Source: Varibaculum prostatecancerukia (lineage in GTDB: Bacteria > Actinomycetota > Actinomycetes > Actinomycetales > Actinomycetaceae). From it: a stretch of DNA of 64,000 bases. The stretch covers positions 1,922,001 to 1,986,000 of the forward strand of contig NZ_OW968402.1 of NCBI RefSeq assembly GCF_943169825.2, written 5' to 3'. Position numbers and translations under genes: made by a program. The stretch's first letter is position 1. Each line of letters opens with the position of its first letter. This document shows, piece after piece, positions 1,229 to 54,593 of this stretch. The notes beneath the pieces were generated by a model. The model worked only from the letters and a program-made list of their open reading frames with translations, was not told where the DNA came from and ran no database searches.

Positions 1229-1342
1229 ATTTGCCGTTGCCTTAGCAACTACCTCAGTCTAAGACAGAGCCAATAAGCCTTCCAAATCCACGACAGCTTA
1301 TTTAATGTGATTCACACACTAGCGCCGCGGTGGGGACGTACT

Positions 1343-1454
1343 GCACGGGGGATAGTTTTTATCCGATAGGCTAGGCGGGCGTAAATCCGTAAATGCCGCA
1401 GGCAGTTACGGATTTTGGGCAGCAGGAAAAAACTATCCCCCGCATATTATGTGC
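1343..1454 (+). repeat. Structured repeat element, copy A
   Basis: The first of four related elements. Outer arms 1346-1360 and 1428-1442 are a perfect 15-bp inverted repeat (CGGGGGATAGTTTTT and its complement). Inside lies the conserved 5' motif ATCCGATAGGCTAGGCGGGC followed by GTAA, then an inner inverted repeat (AAATCCGTAA with TTACGGATTT), then the conserved 3' motif TTGGGCAGCAGG. GCAC (1343-1346) and GTGC (1451-1454) can extend the outer stem across a bulge. It lies between argR and tRNA-Arg, both on the minus strand, so the element as oriented is antisense to its neighbours. The shared motifs and differing stems in the other copies are discussed in the findings. Confidence 0.8.
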
Positions 1455-45069: not shown

Positions 45070-46026
45070 ATGGATAGCCAAAAAATTAAAGATGGCGCTG
45101 CGCTGACCAGGCCGCGTCCGGTGTTTTCGCCGGGGCGCCTGGTCAGCGCGGTTGTAGTACTGATTCTGGCGGCCATGCTGGTGCATGGCCTGGTCGCTAA
45201 TGAAAAGTTCCGTTGGGATCAGGTAGCCATATACCTCTTTCACCCCACGGTTCTGCGTGGGATTATGTGGACACTTATTCTTACGGTAGTTTCCATGCTG
45301 ATTGGGGTAATCCTGGCGGTGACTATGGCGATTATGCGCCAGTCCCCTAACCCGATTATGAAGGGGGTTTCCTGGACCTATATCTGGTTCTTTAGGGGAA
45401 CTCCTATCTACACCCAGCTGCTGTTTTGGGGGATGCTACCCACCCTTTATTCCACCCTCTCGCTGGGAGTGCCTTTCGGCCCGGAACTGCTCACTTTCGA
45501 CACCAACACGGTGATCAGCCCGGCGGTGGCCGCTATTTTGGGACTGGGGCTTAACGAGGGAGCTTACCTGGCAGAAATCGTGCGCTCCGGCCTGAACGCG
45601 GTGGATTCGGGACAAGAGGAGGCGGCGCGCGCCCTAGGGATGAGGCGCAGTCAGATTCTGCGGCGAATTATTCTTCCGCAAGCCATGCGGGTGATTATTC
45701 CGCCTACCGGCAACGAAACCATTTCCATGCTGAAGACCACTTCCTTGGTCTTGGCGGTGCCCTTTACTTTGGAGATTACGTTCGCTACCCAAACCATAGG
45801 GCAACGTCTGTTCCTGCCGATCCCATTATTACTGGTAGCAGCGATTTGGTATTTGACTATTACTTCGATTCTGATGGTGATTCAAAGCCACATTGAAAGC
45901 TACTTTGGTCGCGGGTTTGATGAACGGACCGGCGGGGATAAGAAACTCTCCGGACCAAGTAAGTTACGCGCGATAGCCGAGTCTGGCACTACCAAAGACG
46001 ATCCCTTCTTGGAGTACACCCCATGA
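45070..46026 (+). CDS. Polar amino-acid ABC transporter permease
   Basis: Permease of 318 residues in the HisMQ family. After an extended N-terminus with one hydrophobic segment come about five more; the conserved EAA loop is seen as [20 protein letters not shown] followed by [13 protein letters not shown], which contacts the ATPase. The C-terminal tail is hydrophilic. It starts 24 bases after the receptor gene and overlaps the ATPase gene by four bases (ATGA). A single permease gene implies a homodimer. Confidence 0.92.
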
Positions 46027-46868
46027 GCTCACAACCAGATAAGCAACCCCTAATGGTGGATTTGCAGCACGTCCACAAGTTCTTTGGCGATCTCCACGTG
46101 CTGCGGGACGTAAGTTTACAGGTTGCCCCAGGGGAAGTGTGCGTGCTCCTCGGTCCCTCTGGCTCCGGAAAATCGACCTTGCTGCGCTGCGTAAACGAGC
46201 TGGAACAGGTGTCTGGAGGGCGCGTGTACCTAAACGGGGAACTATTAGGGATGGAAGAGGGTGCGCCCTCGAAAAATCCTATCCGCGCCGCCTTAGATCG
46301 TCGCCGCGGATCTATCACCGAGCAGGGTACCGTGTTGCGACGCCTGAGCGATAAGGAAATCGCGCGCCAACGCTCCCAAGTGGGCATGGTGTTCCAGCGT
46401 TTCAACCTGTTCCCTCACAAGACCGCACTGGAAAACGTGATGGAAGCCCCTATGCAGGTGAAGGGAATCGGCAAAGAGGAGGCACATGCGAAGGCACTGG
46501 AGCTGTTAGAGCGAGTCGGGCTGGCAGATCGCGCTGACCATTATCCGGCTCAGCTATCGGGAGGACAGCAACAGCGAGTAGCCATCGCCCGCGCCCTCGC
46601 TATGGAGCCAGAGCTGATGCTGTTTGACGAGCCTACTTCGGCCCTGGATCCCGAATTGGTGGGGGAAGTACTTTCAGTTATGCAGGATCTGGCGCGCGGA
46701 GGCATGACCATGATCGTGGTTACCCACGAGATTGGTTTCGCCCGGGAAGTCGCCGACCACGTGGTGTTCATGGACGAAGGTAAAATCTTGGAACAAGGGA
46801 CTCCTGACCAGGTAATTAACCACCCTCAGAATCCCCGCACCCAAGACTTCTTCTCCAAAGTACTTTAG
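46023..46868 (+). CDS. Polar amino-acid ABC transporter ATPase
   Basis: ATPase of the importer (281 residues): Walker [11 protein letters not shown]-loop [13 protein letters not shown], signature [15 protein letters not shown] and Walker [15 protein letters not shown], switch His in VVTHEIGFA. An insert of about 35 residues between Walker A and the Q-loop ([20 protein letters not shown]) is longer than in typical GlnQ proteins. A weak hairpin follows the stop, so termination is not certain. Confidence 0.93.
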
Positions 46869-50713: not shown

Positions 50714-51101
50714 AGCCCCTCCCTCATCGCAGGTGGATAACCTCTATTTTAGCTGGTAATCCGGGGTGACATGAGCATTTTCCGCACCTAAACAAGCAGC
50801 CGGGGATAGGTTTCCACTGAGCGTTCTGCACGGAGGGTAGATTTTTCCTCCTGCCCAAGAAATTCGGAAAACGTCGCTACGTTTTCCGAATTCTTATGCC
50901 CACCGCGCCTGCTCGGATAAAATCTACCCTCCGCGCTTATATGCAGCATGAGCACAAGGATTATGGGCGAGTAGAAACACGCGCCTAGCAAGTGCCTGCA
51001 ATATCGAACCGCACCATTTAGCCCACCGCATATCGCCGCATCCTCGCTTTCGCAAGAAAACAAGCTTCTCGGCTACTTTTACCGTGCTATCCGAGTAAAA
51101 G
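50714..51101. other. Intergenic region holding structured repeat copy B
   Basis: 388 bases without a supported gene. The part 50827-50945 is the structured repeat listed separately; the remainder contains the promoter of amrB and the end of the 51102 transcript. A minus-strand frame across it is only the complement of the repeat. Confidence 0.5.
50827..50945 (-). repeat. Structured repeat element, copy B
   Basis: Minus orientation. Outer arms 50831-50845 and 50919-50933 form a perfect 15-bp inverted repeat (CGGAGGGTAGATTTT on the plus strand). Inner arms 50861-50874 and 50879-50892 form a perfect 14-bp inverted repeat with a CGCT loop. Read on the minus strand the order is outer arm, ATCCGAGCAGGCGCGGTGGG then CATAA, inner stem, TTGGGCAGGAGG, outer arm. 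TGCA at 50827-50830 and 50942-50945 may extend the outer stem. Relative to copy A the outer arms are similar but the core is inverted. Confidence 0.8.
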
Positions 51102-52250
51102 TTATAGATACGGGCGAAGATCTATCGGTGGCGCCCCTGCTAATTTTTGAAATGGTGATCCCCTGTCACCTACGTAACCCACGCCAGTTTTTCTATCAAC
51201 TGTGTAATAAGTGTGGTTTTGACTACCCTGCGATGGGTTCTGCCAGTCGAGCCTGATGGCAACCTGATCCCCTTGTTGCTGGTAAACGGTAACAGTTAAA
51301 ACCTCGCCACTGCTCTTTAAACGTTCTTCTCCGCCGTCTCTCAACTCAAATGCCCTGGCTGCTTGCGTCAATTGGCTATCGCTGTAACCTTTGGCTTCTT
51401 GCGCTTTCTTGGCTTCTTCGGCTTTTTTAGCTTCGGCCTCGGCTTCGGCTTTGGCGATCTCAGCTTTCTTCGCCTCGCGAGCGTCGGTTACTTTCTTAAT
51501 AAACTGCTCTATCTGGGCATCGTCCATGCCGTACTCTTTATAAATCTTCTTAAGCTGGGCAATCTGCTCATCGCTAACATTTTCCGGACTGATCGGGTCC
51601 AGCTTAAAAACCGTTTTTGAAGCAGAACCTTTAGCGTTATTACCAGTAGTTTTACCGTTCTGTCCCGATTTATCAGACTTTGTACCATTACCCGTCTGTT
51701 TGTCACCAGCGGTCTTCTTGTCGGGAACCGCAACCTGCAGCGGAACCGGATCCTTCGGTACCGTAAAAATCTGACCATCATCCAGAATCGGGGAAGCCTC
51801 TAGCGCCAGCCGATACCGACCAGCCATTAATTTAAGCTTGGTTTTGCCAGGAAAAAACTTAACTCGTTTATCCACCTTTTCCTTATCTAAATCCTCACCC
51901 TGAACCCGAAGCGGCACAAAGGAAGACTTTGCCGCATCGTAGCTCTCCCCGTTAACCTCAACTAACACCGATTGGTATTGATGAGCCGCCTGCCAAGCAG
52001 CATTTTCCGCCTGCTGCTTACGGTAAAACCAAAAACCAGCACCGAGCGCACAAACCAGGACCAACACCAAGATGCAGCACACAATAATCAATCCCCGGCG
52101 CCCTTTGGAGTCTCCAGCGTCATTAGAATCAGCACCACCCAACCCAGGCTGTTGTCCCACCACCGGAGGCATCACCCCAGTCGCATCCCCATCACCAGGA
52201 ACATAAGTATCACCCATAGAGTCCGGACGACTATCAAAACCACTCGTCAT
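51102..52250 (-). CDS. Single-span membrane protein with coiled coil, unknown function
   Basis: A 382-residue protein; ATG 52250 with GGGAG before it is preferred over TTG 52265. The first 50 residues are Gly/Asp/Pro-rich and cytoplasmic, then one membrane segment (GLIIVCCILVLVLVCALGAG). The outside part has a beta-rich domain (residues about 85-170, LVEVNGESYDAAKSSFVPLR), a Lys/Thr/Gly/Asn linker, and a strongly predicted Ala/Glu/Lys coiled coil (KAEIAKAEAEAEAKKAEEAK). A final about 75-residue domain contains TYYTVDRKTGVGYVGDRGSP. No family recognised. The gene is flanked by structured repeats B and C in opposite orientation. Confidence 0.7.
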   Translation of the reverse strand: MTSGFDSRPDSMGDTYVPGDGDATGVMPPVVGQQPGLGGADSNDAGDSKGRRGLIIVCCILVLVLVCALGAGFWFYRKQQAENAAWQAAHQYQSVLVEVNGESYDAAKSSFVPLRVQGEDLDKEKVDKRVKFFPGKTKLKLMAGRYRLALEASPILDDGQIFTVPKDPVPLQVAVPDKKTAGDKQTGNGTKSDKSGQNGKTTGNNAKGSASKTVFKLDPISPENVSDEQIAQLKKIYKEYGMDDAQIEQFIKKVTDAREAKKAEIAKAEAEAEAKKAEEAKKAQEAKGYSDSQLTQAARAFELRDGGEERLKSSGEVLTVTVYQQQGDQVAIRLDWQNPSQGSQNHTYYTVDRKTGVGYVGDRGSPFQKLAGAPPIDLRPYL

Positions 52251-52358
52251 AACTAATACTCCCAAGAAAGCGAAGTAAAAACGTTAAATCCTGCCCCCAT
52301 GCTAACGCCCCAAACAGCGCCATACCCAGCATTCTCTGTCTGAATTACGGTACAACGC

Positions 52359-52440
52359 GGGGGAGGGATCTTTCCGAGCAGGCGCGGTGGGCGTAAAAGG
52401 GGCGCGGCCGGAAAGCCACGGTCTTCGCCATCACTCCCCC
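52359..52440 (+). repeat. Structured repeat element, copy C (divergent)
   Basis: Outer arms are short (GGGGGAG 52359-52365 with CTCCCCC 52434-52440). The conserved 5' motif is intact (CCGAGCAGGCGCGGTGGGCG then TAAAA), but the 3' motif GGGCAGGAGG is missing and the inner stem is weak (GGCCG with CGGTC). It is either a decayed copy or a shorter variant. Confidence 0.6.
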
Positions 52441-52585
52441 ATCGGGAACACACCCATTTAGCCACCACAACAAATTCCATTCTTAGCGTCTGCCAGGAAT
52501 CGAATCAGCAGGTGTTTTTATCTATTCAAACCCGCAACTTGCAACGCGCAGAAACACCAAAACACAGGCATCAATGGGGAAGAAA

Positions 52586-52690
52586 GCGCTGAAACTAGGT
52601 TTTCCCGAGTCGGCTAGGCGGGCGTAAAACTCGGAAAATGCATGAGCATTTTTCGAGTTTTTGGGCAGGAGGGGAACCTAGTTTCAGCGC
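52586..52690 (+). repeat. Structured repeat element, copy D
   Basis: Outer arms 52586-52601 and 52675-52690 form a perfect 16-bp inverted repeat (GCGCTGAAACTAGGTT) unlike those of A and B in sequence. The core reads CCCGAGTCGGCTAGGCGGGC then GTAAAA, an inner stem of about 16 bp (ACTCGGAAAATGC with GCATTTTTCGAGT, one G-U), and TTGGGCAGGAGG. It ends eight bases past the stop of the ABC transporter gene 52698-54593 and could double as its terminator. Confidence 0.8.
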
Positions 52691-52697
52691 GATTCAA

Positions 52698-54593
52698 TCA
52701 AGCATCGATGTCACCTTTGGTGAACTGCGCGTTGTAGAGGCGGGCGTATGCGCCCTCGGCGGCCAGCAACTCTTCATGCGTCCCGGATTCGACAATATCG
52801 CCATGCTCCATCACGAATATCACGTCACTGTCGCGAATGGTAGACAGGCGATGAGCAATCACGAACGAGGTGCGTCCCGCAGTAGCTTTGGCCACTGCTC
52901 GCTGAATCAGCTGCTCCGTGCGAGTATCAACCGAGGATGTAGCCTCGTCAAGAATCAAAAGCGGCTTATCGGCAATCATGGCGCGGGCAATAGTCACCAA
53001 TTGGCGCTGCCCGGCTGAGAGGGCGGAATCTTCACGGATCTCGGTATCGAGGCCGTGGGGCAGTTGCGCGACCAGATCACTAAGTCCTATCGCTTTAATC
53101 ACTTGCGCTAGGCGCTCCTCGGATACGTCCTGGTGGGAATAAACAATGTTTTCCCGTAGGGTTCCTTGGAACATCCAGCTGTCCTGGAGCACCATCGCGA
53201 ATTGTGAATCCACGTCCTCGCGCCGCATCGCAGAAAGCGGGGTGCCGTCCAGGAGAATTTCTCCAGAGTCCAGTTCGTAAAAGCGCATTAGCAGGTTTAC
53301 CAGAGTGGTTTTCCCGGCTCCGGTCGGACCTACGATGGCCACGTTTTGTCCCGGCTGTACTAGGGCGGAAAAACCGTGAATGATTTCTTTGCCCGCTTCA
53401 TACGAGAAGCGGATATCCCGGAATTCGACTTCGCCCCTAGTGTCCTTGCCGTTCAGCGCCGGTTTTTCGGATTCGTCGGACAGCTCGTCCTCTTCTAGGA
53501 TCTCAAATACGCGCCCTCCGGCAGCAGCGGCGGATTGGAAGGAGGCCGCCGCAGACGCCAGGTTCGATAACGGCTGGGTGAAAACCCGGATATAGAGCAT
53601 AAATGCCGCAATTACTCCGATGGTTACGTAGCCTTTCACCACGAGGACTGCACCCAGCACGCATACCACCACGTAACCCAGGTTTCCCACGAACCCCATT
53701 ACCGGCATCATCAGTTGGGAGAGGAAATCCGCACGCCAGGTGGCGTTAAAAAGTCGCTGGTTACGGCGGTTAAACTCTGCGGTGGTAGAGGCAGCAGCAT
53801 TGTAAATATTGATGATTCCTTGCCCGGATAGCGATTCTTCGATATGACCGTTTAGGCTGCCCAGGTAGGATTGCCGGCGAATAAAAAACCGTTGCGAGAA
53901 CACCATGATCACGGCGTTGAGGATGAATCCTAGAACTGCCACCCCCATACCGGCCAGCGCCATTCGCCACTCGGTGTACAGCATCATAAAAGCGGCGCCT
54001 ACCAGAGTAACTACTCCGGTAATGATGGTGGTGATTGCGGAATGTAGGGTTTGTACCAGGGTGTCGATATCGTTGGTTACCCGGCTCATGGTGTCGCCGT
54101 GGCTGGTTTTGTCAAAAAAGGACAGCGGGAGACGGTCGATTTTTCGGTCGATGGCGGAGCGCATCCGCTGCCCGGTGCGTTGGGTAACTACCACCATTAT
54201 CAGCGATTGTCCCAGGTTAAAGAAGAATCCCAGGGCGAGGACGAGGGTTGCCATCCGCAAGAGGGAAAATATCCTGTCCATATCGATACTGCTGCGCAGT
54301 CCCGAGGCAATCACATCGGTTATCAAACCTAAGAACATCGGCATAATCGCAGTCAGGAGCGATCCCACAATCGCCAAAACTACCGCAACCAGGATAGCTA
54401 GGCGGTAACGCCCTAAAAACTTGGCAAGTCCGCGCACCGATTGCGAAAACTGTCCCTTCTTGGCTTTCTCATAGACGTTCCCCCCGTGGCGTCCTCCCGA
54501 GCGCACCGGCGACATTTTTTCTTTTACTGGCTCTAGTCCGCGCCGCGCCGACTCGACTCGCCGGTCCCACCTGCCCATTTCTGCGTATTTCAT
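52698..54593 (-). CDS. Heterodimeric ABC exporter subunit, canonical ATP site
   Basis: Fused permease/ATPase (631 residues) of the multidrug/lipid exporter group. A 65-residue basic N-terminus precedes six membrane segments (about 75-370) and an ATPase domain with Walker A GPTGAGKTT, Q-loop MVLQDSWMFQGT, signature LSAGQRQLVTIARAM, and Walker B LLILDEATSSVDTR with the catalytic Glu. Its ATG overlaps the stop of its partner (ATGA). The signature has Ala for the second Gly, seen in many heterodimeric exporters. Cargo unknown. Confidence 0.9.
   Translation of the reverse strand: MKYAEMGRWDRRVESARRGLEPVKEKMSPVRSGGRHGGNVYEKAKKGQFSQSVRGLAKFLGRYRLAILVAVVLAIVGSLLTAIMPMFLGLITDVIASGLRSSIDMDRIFSLLRMATLVLALGFFFNLGQSLIMVVVTQRTGQRMRSAIDRKIDRLPLSFFDKTSHGDTMSRVTNDIDTLVQTLHSAITTIITGVVTLVGAAFMMLYTEWRMALAGMGVAVLGFILNAVIMVFSQRFFIRRQSYLGSLNGHIEESLSGQGIINIYNAAASTTAEFNRRNQRLFNATWRADFLSQLMMPVMGFVGNLGYVVVCVLGAVLVVKGYVTIGVIAAFMLYIRVFTQPLSNLASAAASFQSAAAAGGRVFEILEEDELSDESEKPALNGKDTRGEVEFRDIRFSYEAGKEIIHGFSALVQPGQNVAIVGPTGAGKTTLVNLLMRFYELDSGEILLDGTPLSAMRREDVDSQFAMVLQDSWMFQGTLRENIVYSHQDVSEERLAQVIKAIGLSDLVAQLPHGLDTEIREDSALSAGQRQLVTIARAMIADKPLLILDEATSSVDTRTEQLIQRAVAKATAGRTSFVIAHRLSTIRDSDVIFVMEHGDIVESGTHEELLAAEGAYARLYNAQFTKGDIDA

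Follow-up and report, generated by a model that had tools for sequence, protein, structure and literature searches.

Copies A, B and D, three hairpin elements in the window analysed here (64,000 nucleotides, bases 1922001-1986000 of a 2.21-Mb Varibaculum genome, labelled G000), belong to a real family of bacterial intergenic palindromic repeats of Varibaculum, whose core is able to turn round. The explanation that we favour, with a probability of roughly 0.6, is an intergenic repeat family in which template switching would keep up the arms and invert the core, selection would act on the fold, and a species-specific gene insertion would have occurred between copies B and D. The features concerned are the following, in window coordinates:

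1342-1448, plus strand: copy A, an intact element of the GGCTAGGCGGGCG subtype (covariance model, E 1.2e-18)
50825-50937, minus strand: copy B, an intact element with outer arms of about 20 bp, 5′ and 3′ boxes and an inner hairpin (covariance model R1, E 1.8e-25)
50954-52395, no strand: approximate inserted segment, comprising the gene and half element C, missing in congener G005 (BLASTN of the intergenic region, five congeners)
51102-52250, minus strand: accessory gene, an ORF of 382 aa from the ATG
52354-52396, plus strand: copy C, half an element, with the 5′ arm and 5′ box and then a junction to local sequence (covariance match 52354-52433, E 0.002)
52585-52693, plus strand: copy D, an intact element (covariance model, E 1.1e-18)

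The repeat is dispersed, about 110 nt long and double-stemmed: paired, variable outer arms, two conserved G-rich strands and a variable inner hairpin. The conserved 5′ strand is GAGYRGGYGCGGTGGGCATAA or GGCTAGGCGGGCGTAA, depending on the subtype, and the conserved 3′ strand is TTGGGCRGGAGG. When A, B and D are compared, the outer stem of about 20 bp varies in sequence from copy to copy while its pairing is largely kept, and the strand with the G-rich boxes is predicted to form a long rod made of the outer stem, the conserved internal loop and the inner hairpin. The reality of these three copies, assumed in the original prediction, is borne out by their RNA folds (z -9.0 for B, -9.9 for D and -5.4 for A, with none of 200 shuffles as good) and by their E-values (≤1.1e-18 for B and D, 1.2e-18 for A), although the covariance scores hold by construction, since all three were part of the 40-copy set used to build the model.

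Model R1 rests on those 40 own-genome copies and has 29 consensus pairs; for 21 of these at least one copy has both partners changed, the copies being related rather than independent. It gives 48 matches at E ≤ 1e-5 in the 2.21-Mb genome, 40 of them model input. A pattern search of the box, allowing up to three mismatches, found A, B, C and D among 67 genome matches, against 41 for the reversed control pattern, so that many of the weaker box matches are due to chance. Rfam at gathering score returned only five tRNAs in the window and no match for the elements; at loose E-values weak hits appear over the elements, far below threshold. No description of a Varibaculum hairpin-repeat family was found among literature titles and abstract openings. 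With neither an Rfam match nor a literature description found, we regard the family as new, and it is best called a variant of the bacterial intergenic palindromic repeats.

Related arrangements were seen alongside these elements. A third subtype has another 5′ box (GGGTAGGCTTCGGGCCTTAAATCCG or near) and an almost fixed inner hairpin (stretches L011 3161, L014 3155, L071 2716, L073 5045 and L087 16936). In a second repeat family, built on the same plan, AGAGGGG and GGGGTCCCC are the conserved strands, and both the outer stem around GGTAAAAG...CTTTTACC and the inner hairpin vary. This family lies at L009, L011, L031, L033 (for instance L033 3329, plus strand) and elsewhere, stands head to head with the first family in several places, and its exact pattern occurs in all six Varibaculum genomes and in none of 33 genomes of other genera. 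Finally, of the five pattern matches that a scan of own-genome stretches placed outside elements, four look like solitary 3′ halves (box and 3′ arm), in L020, L025 and L033, as would result from deletions or truncated copies.

The family is near-restricted to the genus. The covariance model matches all six Varibaculum genomes and none of 33 genomes of other genera from the family and order; in a wider draw of 151 family genomes, searched with stricter filters, seven match, namely the six Varibaculum and one of the 145 others, with a single copy. This last copy (G150:C7:10599-10712), from a different genus of the family, is high-scoring (E 5.3e-22) and would reflect transfer or contamination. 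The exact element pattern was found in 74 stretches of a collection of 84,980 species, distributed over four assemblies: Varibaculum cambriense DSM 15806, V. cambriense DFI.7.46, V. vaginae Marseille-P5644 and "Tissierella sp. Marseille-P2918". These correspond to congeners G003, G001, G002 and G005; G000 and G004 are not among the matches, and the collection may omit the window's own or very near genomes. The assembly labelled Tissierella sp. Marseille-P2918, which carries elements in L128 and other FQLW loci and corresponds to G005, appears to be a wrongly named Varibaculum genome. In a pattern scan of viral contigs, the one match (IMG/VR contig L195, 503-611) is letter-identical to an element of the G005 assembly and shares a 300-nt stretch with it, and this contig therefore probably comes from the G005 genome.

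The counts given below rest on two sets of covariance matches. The first held 133, of which 114 were kept (17 opposite-strand echoes and 2 partial matches dropped) and to which C was added; the second held 128, of which 108 were kept (4 duplicates and the 16 lowest-scoring dropped). Removal of duplicates and of copies shorter than 90 nt, C among these, reduced the 223 elements to 200: 46 from G000, 38 from G004, 35 each from G001 and G005, 25 from G003 and 21 from G002, the congener figures being copies in fetched stretches and not genome totals.

The stems carry a clear strand signal. In outer stems, G-T/T-G oppositions outnumber A-C/C-A ones by 105 to 15 (153 distinct arm pairs, 165 of 200 elements parsed), and in inner stems 27 wobbles stand against 6 A-C mismatches (87 distinct, 151 of 200 parsed); an earlier count had given 94 against 30 (96 of 115 parsed). 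All of these counts, like those of orientation below, come from related copies and not independent ones. Since a DNA cruciform should lack such a bias, folding is probably maintained in one strand, either as RNA or as single-stranded DNA, and the wobble preference points to the strand with the G-rich boxes. A strong mutational strand bias could also give rise to the wobble excess. Compensatory changes and strand-specific G-U tolerance, the marks of a structured RNA or single-stranded DNA, are both found in the elements.

The elements are biased towards the stop codons of genes and often lie just beyond them. By a crude longest-ORF caller, the downstream gene is convergent for 143 of the 191 elements with one called; its stop falls within 100 nt of the element 3′ end in 98 of 200 cases, against 26 of 200 for an upstream-gene stop at the 5′ end. 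For copy D the distance to the stop codon of its convergent neighbour, gene 52698-54593, is 4 nt. Because the downstream gene is mostly convergent, with its stop near the 3′ end of the element, the folding strand is usually antisense to the nearest gene. A simple 3′-UTR role for that gene is thus not favoured, and our best guess at a predicted function is an RNA role beside gene ends.

Could the elements instead be transcription terminators or insulators between convergent genes, perhaps Rho-dependent on the C-rich strand? They do sit beyond stop codons; where both neighbouring genes were called (180 copies), the pair is convergent in 84 cases; and in sequence the strand sense to the nearest gene has C-rich loops around the hairpin. 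On the other hand, the wobble preference points to the opposite strand. Intrinsic terminators (a GC-rich hairpin followed by a T run) were searched for and rejected: none lies over B, C or D, and the three regional matches are at chance level (2.8 expected). We consider the terminator explanation unlikely.

The original prediction had read copy B as an element whose outer arms align with those of copy A in the same strand while its core is reversed, as if flipped. That alignment is no evidence of a flip in B itself: the arms are inverted repeats of each other and hence alike on both strands, which is why they align in the same strand when the core is reversed. The underlying idea that cores can flip does hold elsewhere in the family. 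Matching sites between species by both flanks gave 249 pairs, 150 with the same core orientation and 99 with the opposite one, many of the latter being merely neighbouring elements. When similar outer arms were required on both sides, 98 pairs remained (84 same core, 14 opposite) at 39 sites, a number slightly too high since a single place was counted as two sites, the G004 element L081:5007 being paired with L032 as well. At 9 of the 39 same-arm orthologous sites the core is found in both orientations between species, and at the other 30 one orientation is kept across the species compared.

The number of flips falls as the flanks are required to align closer to the element: 3 of 15 sites at a limit of 100 nt, 2 of 9 at 50 nt and 0 of 5 at 30 nt. 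Moreover, random pairs pass the arm test at a rate of 2.5% (opposite core) to 4.5% (same core), so that chance could account for two or three of the 14 opposite pairs. The clearest flip is L016:2841 against L083:4485, where the left flank and left arm are the same and the core is opposite. L032 and L081 show the same pattern by eye, this G004 element also belonging to the counted L081/L131 site, and L029 against L086 resembles a larger inversion that takes in the flanks. Some flips could be separate insertions or larger inversions. An opposite core at some orthologous sites is an observed property of the family, seen elsewhere and not for copy B.

The arms themselves also change. In 76 same-arm pairs chosen for having few differences, so that divergent arms are under-counted, 89 positions changed on one side only against 28 paired changes; the excess of single-sided changes indicates that the arms are not kept perfect. 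L010:7716 and L067:7052 have common arms but different inner hairpins, and this partial decoupling of core and arms suggests gene conversion as well.

Flipping of the core between the arms by a recombinase, within a population, would make the element a phase-variable switch altering the expression of the flanking genes. The two orientations at 9 of 39 sites would be expected of such a switch, but they are seen between species only; the arms differ from site to site, which leaves a sequence-specific recombinase with no obvious common crossover site, and the constancy of the 30 other sites suggests that flipping is slow. Of the alternatives weighed here, we hold this one to be the least probable.

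Around copy B, it had been proposed that two structured elements, oppositely oriented, flank gene 51102-52250. Part of this stands: B is intact, structured and on the minus strand. Copy C is half an element, its RNA fold (52354-52445) has a z of -0.56 and 56 of 200 shuffles fold as well, so C is not a folding element. Its right half aligns to G005 sequence that has no element, and the sequences at the junction share a short AAAG. B and C were considered as a matched inverted pair and rejected as such, C being half an element with another arm. Copy D, placed by the same proposal within 150 bases of C, is indeed close by and intact, at a measured spacing of 151 nt.

The gene encodes a product of 382 aa with, by eye, one N-terminal membrane segment and a charged coiled-coil stretch. 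A Pfam search assigned neither this product nor its paralog at 830 kb to a family above cut-off, and a search for relatives by short peptide patterns in the 84,980-species collection, of low sensitivity, matched 595 stretches with none confirmed. The gene is present in one of six Varibaculum genomes and was not found in the five congeners; its own-genome paralogs lie at 830 kb (49% identity) and 1.45 Mb (33%).

We compared the locus in the five congeners between the convergent genes at 46023-46868 and 52698-54593 of the window, which we take to encode an amino-acid ABC ATPase and an ABC exporter. G005 has a homolog of B (88.9%) and the sequence to the right of C. G001 has an extra 422-aa ORF, a homolog of B (88.8%) and then a weaker counterpart of D (L111 4279-4379, 50 bits), and is without 50962-52552. 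Both B homologs have the orientation of B. In G002 there is one element, at the place and in the orientation of D, with other arms, which also fail comparison with the B homolog of G005. G003 has 77 bp between the flanking ORFs and no element. In G004 the genes to the left of B are followed by 115 bp between aligned blocks (1,940 in the window), again without an element, and a short stretch there that looks like B's outer tip may be a remnant.

Compared for presence, absence or inversion, as the original prediction had advised for strains, the locus differs among the six genomes in presence and absence, and no change of orientation was found. In the five congeners the 50.8-52.7 kb segment is absent, never inverted, and B has a single orientation in all three genomes that keep it (G000, G001 and G005). 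These observations do not support the 1.5-kb segment as an inversion unit or switch. As the gene was not found in the congeners and two of them keep B and nearby sequence without it, we think an insertion, some 1.4-1.6 kb long, more probable than an inversion unit. The simplest history, judged from the alignments, is that B and D are older and that the gene and half element C were inserted between them in this lineage. The cassette idea gains from the gene being found in one genome of six and from B being kept without it in two congeners, but the pair at 51 kb, B and C, is unmatched.

The paralog at 830 kb, of 534 aa, lies between two direct element copies with nearly identical arms, accompanied by a third element; the flanking ORFs are presumably miaA and hypD. 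At this site a single such element is present in G003 and G004, followed by a second kind of repeat, and in G001, followed by a counterpart of the third element; none of the three has the gene there. The G000 locus looks like a G003/G004-like and a G001-like allele joined, with the gene between them, and ordinary homologous (unequal) recombination can give this arrangement. Two near-identical copies at 1.005 Mb enclose a methyltransferase gene and a small ORF; unlike gene 51102-52250 and the 830-kb paralog, the methyltransferase is above cut-off in Pfam. The same block is present in G004, and the genes between elements at L011, L027 and L034 are also found in other species (gene names such as Memo and cupin are our presumptive reading of translations). 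With the 51-kb pair unmatched and other between-element genes present in other species, no general cassette system emerges; given the 1.005-Mb block in G004 and the L011 and L027 genes in other species, a cassette-like history is supported for the two paralogous genes only.

These loci bear on the possibility that the elements are non-autonomous transposons which insert next to the ends of genes and, as composite or cassette elements, carry genes enclosed by two copies. Such an origin would fit the presence or absence of elements at matching sites, and the element sequence on each side of both the 51-kb gene and its 830-kb paralog, the latter between direct copies with near-same, otherwise variable arms where three congeners have one. 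Against this, the outer ends are variable, unlike transposon ends, and the Y1 (RAYT) transposase (PF01797) was found in none of the six Varibaculum genomes, the same search being positive in 5 of 14 control genomes. The copies flanking the 51-kb gene are unlike each other, one being a half; the other between-element genes are not peculiar to one species, no covariance-model match lies near the 1.45-Mb paralog, and the 830-kb locus looks like two known alleles joined, which homologous recombination can give. We therefore find a transposon origin improbable, if less so than a terminator or a switch. A reverse transcriptase as the spreading enzyme was also considered and rejected, as its domain occurs in three of the six genomes and is thus not common to all carriers of the family; G000 has one at G000:C1:919728-920444.

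We thus return to template switching and selection for the fold. Two reports, in their available portions, describe template switching between inverted repeats as one way in which arms become homogenised and spacers inverted (PMC8604942, PMC8794818). In Varibaculum, switching between the two arms during replication would keep them complementary and now and then invert the core. Template switching fits both the paired arms and the flips, and selection on the fold is also needed because of the strand bias: selection for a folded strand, probably as RNA, would remove broken copies. At the 51-kb locus, a species-specific insertion of about 1.4-1.6 kb would have brought gene 51102-52250 between the older copies B and D, probably by recombination through dispersed element sequence, and half element C would be what remained at the right edge of the insertion.

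A bolder form of this idea would make the elements transposase-free, RNA-like hairpins acting as hot spots that flip their own core and capture genes by recombination between copies, as with the 51-kb gene and the 830-kb paralog. We rate it about as low as the terminator explanation; if true, it would mean hairpin-based gene shuttling without an integrase in Varibaculum. The family offers a large set of natural experiments, run in parallel, on the upkeep of paired hairpin arms by replication and the inversion of what lies between them; it also bears on whether a long hairpin just past a stop codon acts on that gene.

How do these elements compare with known systems? Among dispersed bacterial palindromes the REPs, linked to a transposase and conserved at their ends, are the best known. 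In the available part of one report, REP and REPIN sequences are dispersed extragenic palindromes predicted to form hairpins in single-stranded DNA or mRNA (PMC3116915), and the Varibaculum elements are likewise dispersed, extragenic, hairpin-forming palindromes. They differ in being about 110 nt long, with two stacked stems and no Y1 transposase; instead of a conserved end palindrome they have outer arms that vary while pairing is largely kept. What is conserved in them is the internal loop and not the ends, and between species their core stands in opposite orientations at about one fifth of the comparable sites. The fixed terminal inverted repeats of MITEs derived from DDE transposons are likewise lacking, both arms containing a variable segment. 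ERIC-like repeats are intergenic, non-coding and about 100-130 nt long, form a long imperfect hairpin, and share their sequence along the whole length from copy to copy. The Varibaculum elements resemble them in size, intergenic place, hairpin form and want of coding capacity, but their arms vary with each copy and yet stay complementary. A parallel in process would be the template-switch inversions of yeast coding DNA (PMC8604942) and RNA-gene hairpins (PMC8794818), which, in the portions of these reports available, likewise combine arm homogenisation with inversion between the arms. Those cases involve short spacers or loops, whereas in Varibaculum the arms of a dispersed repeat enclose about 70 nt of conserved core.
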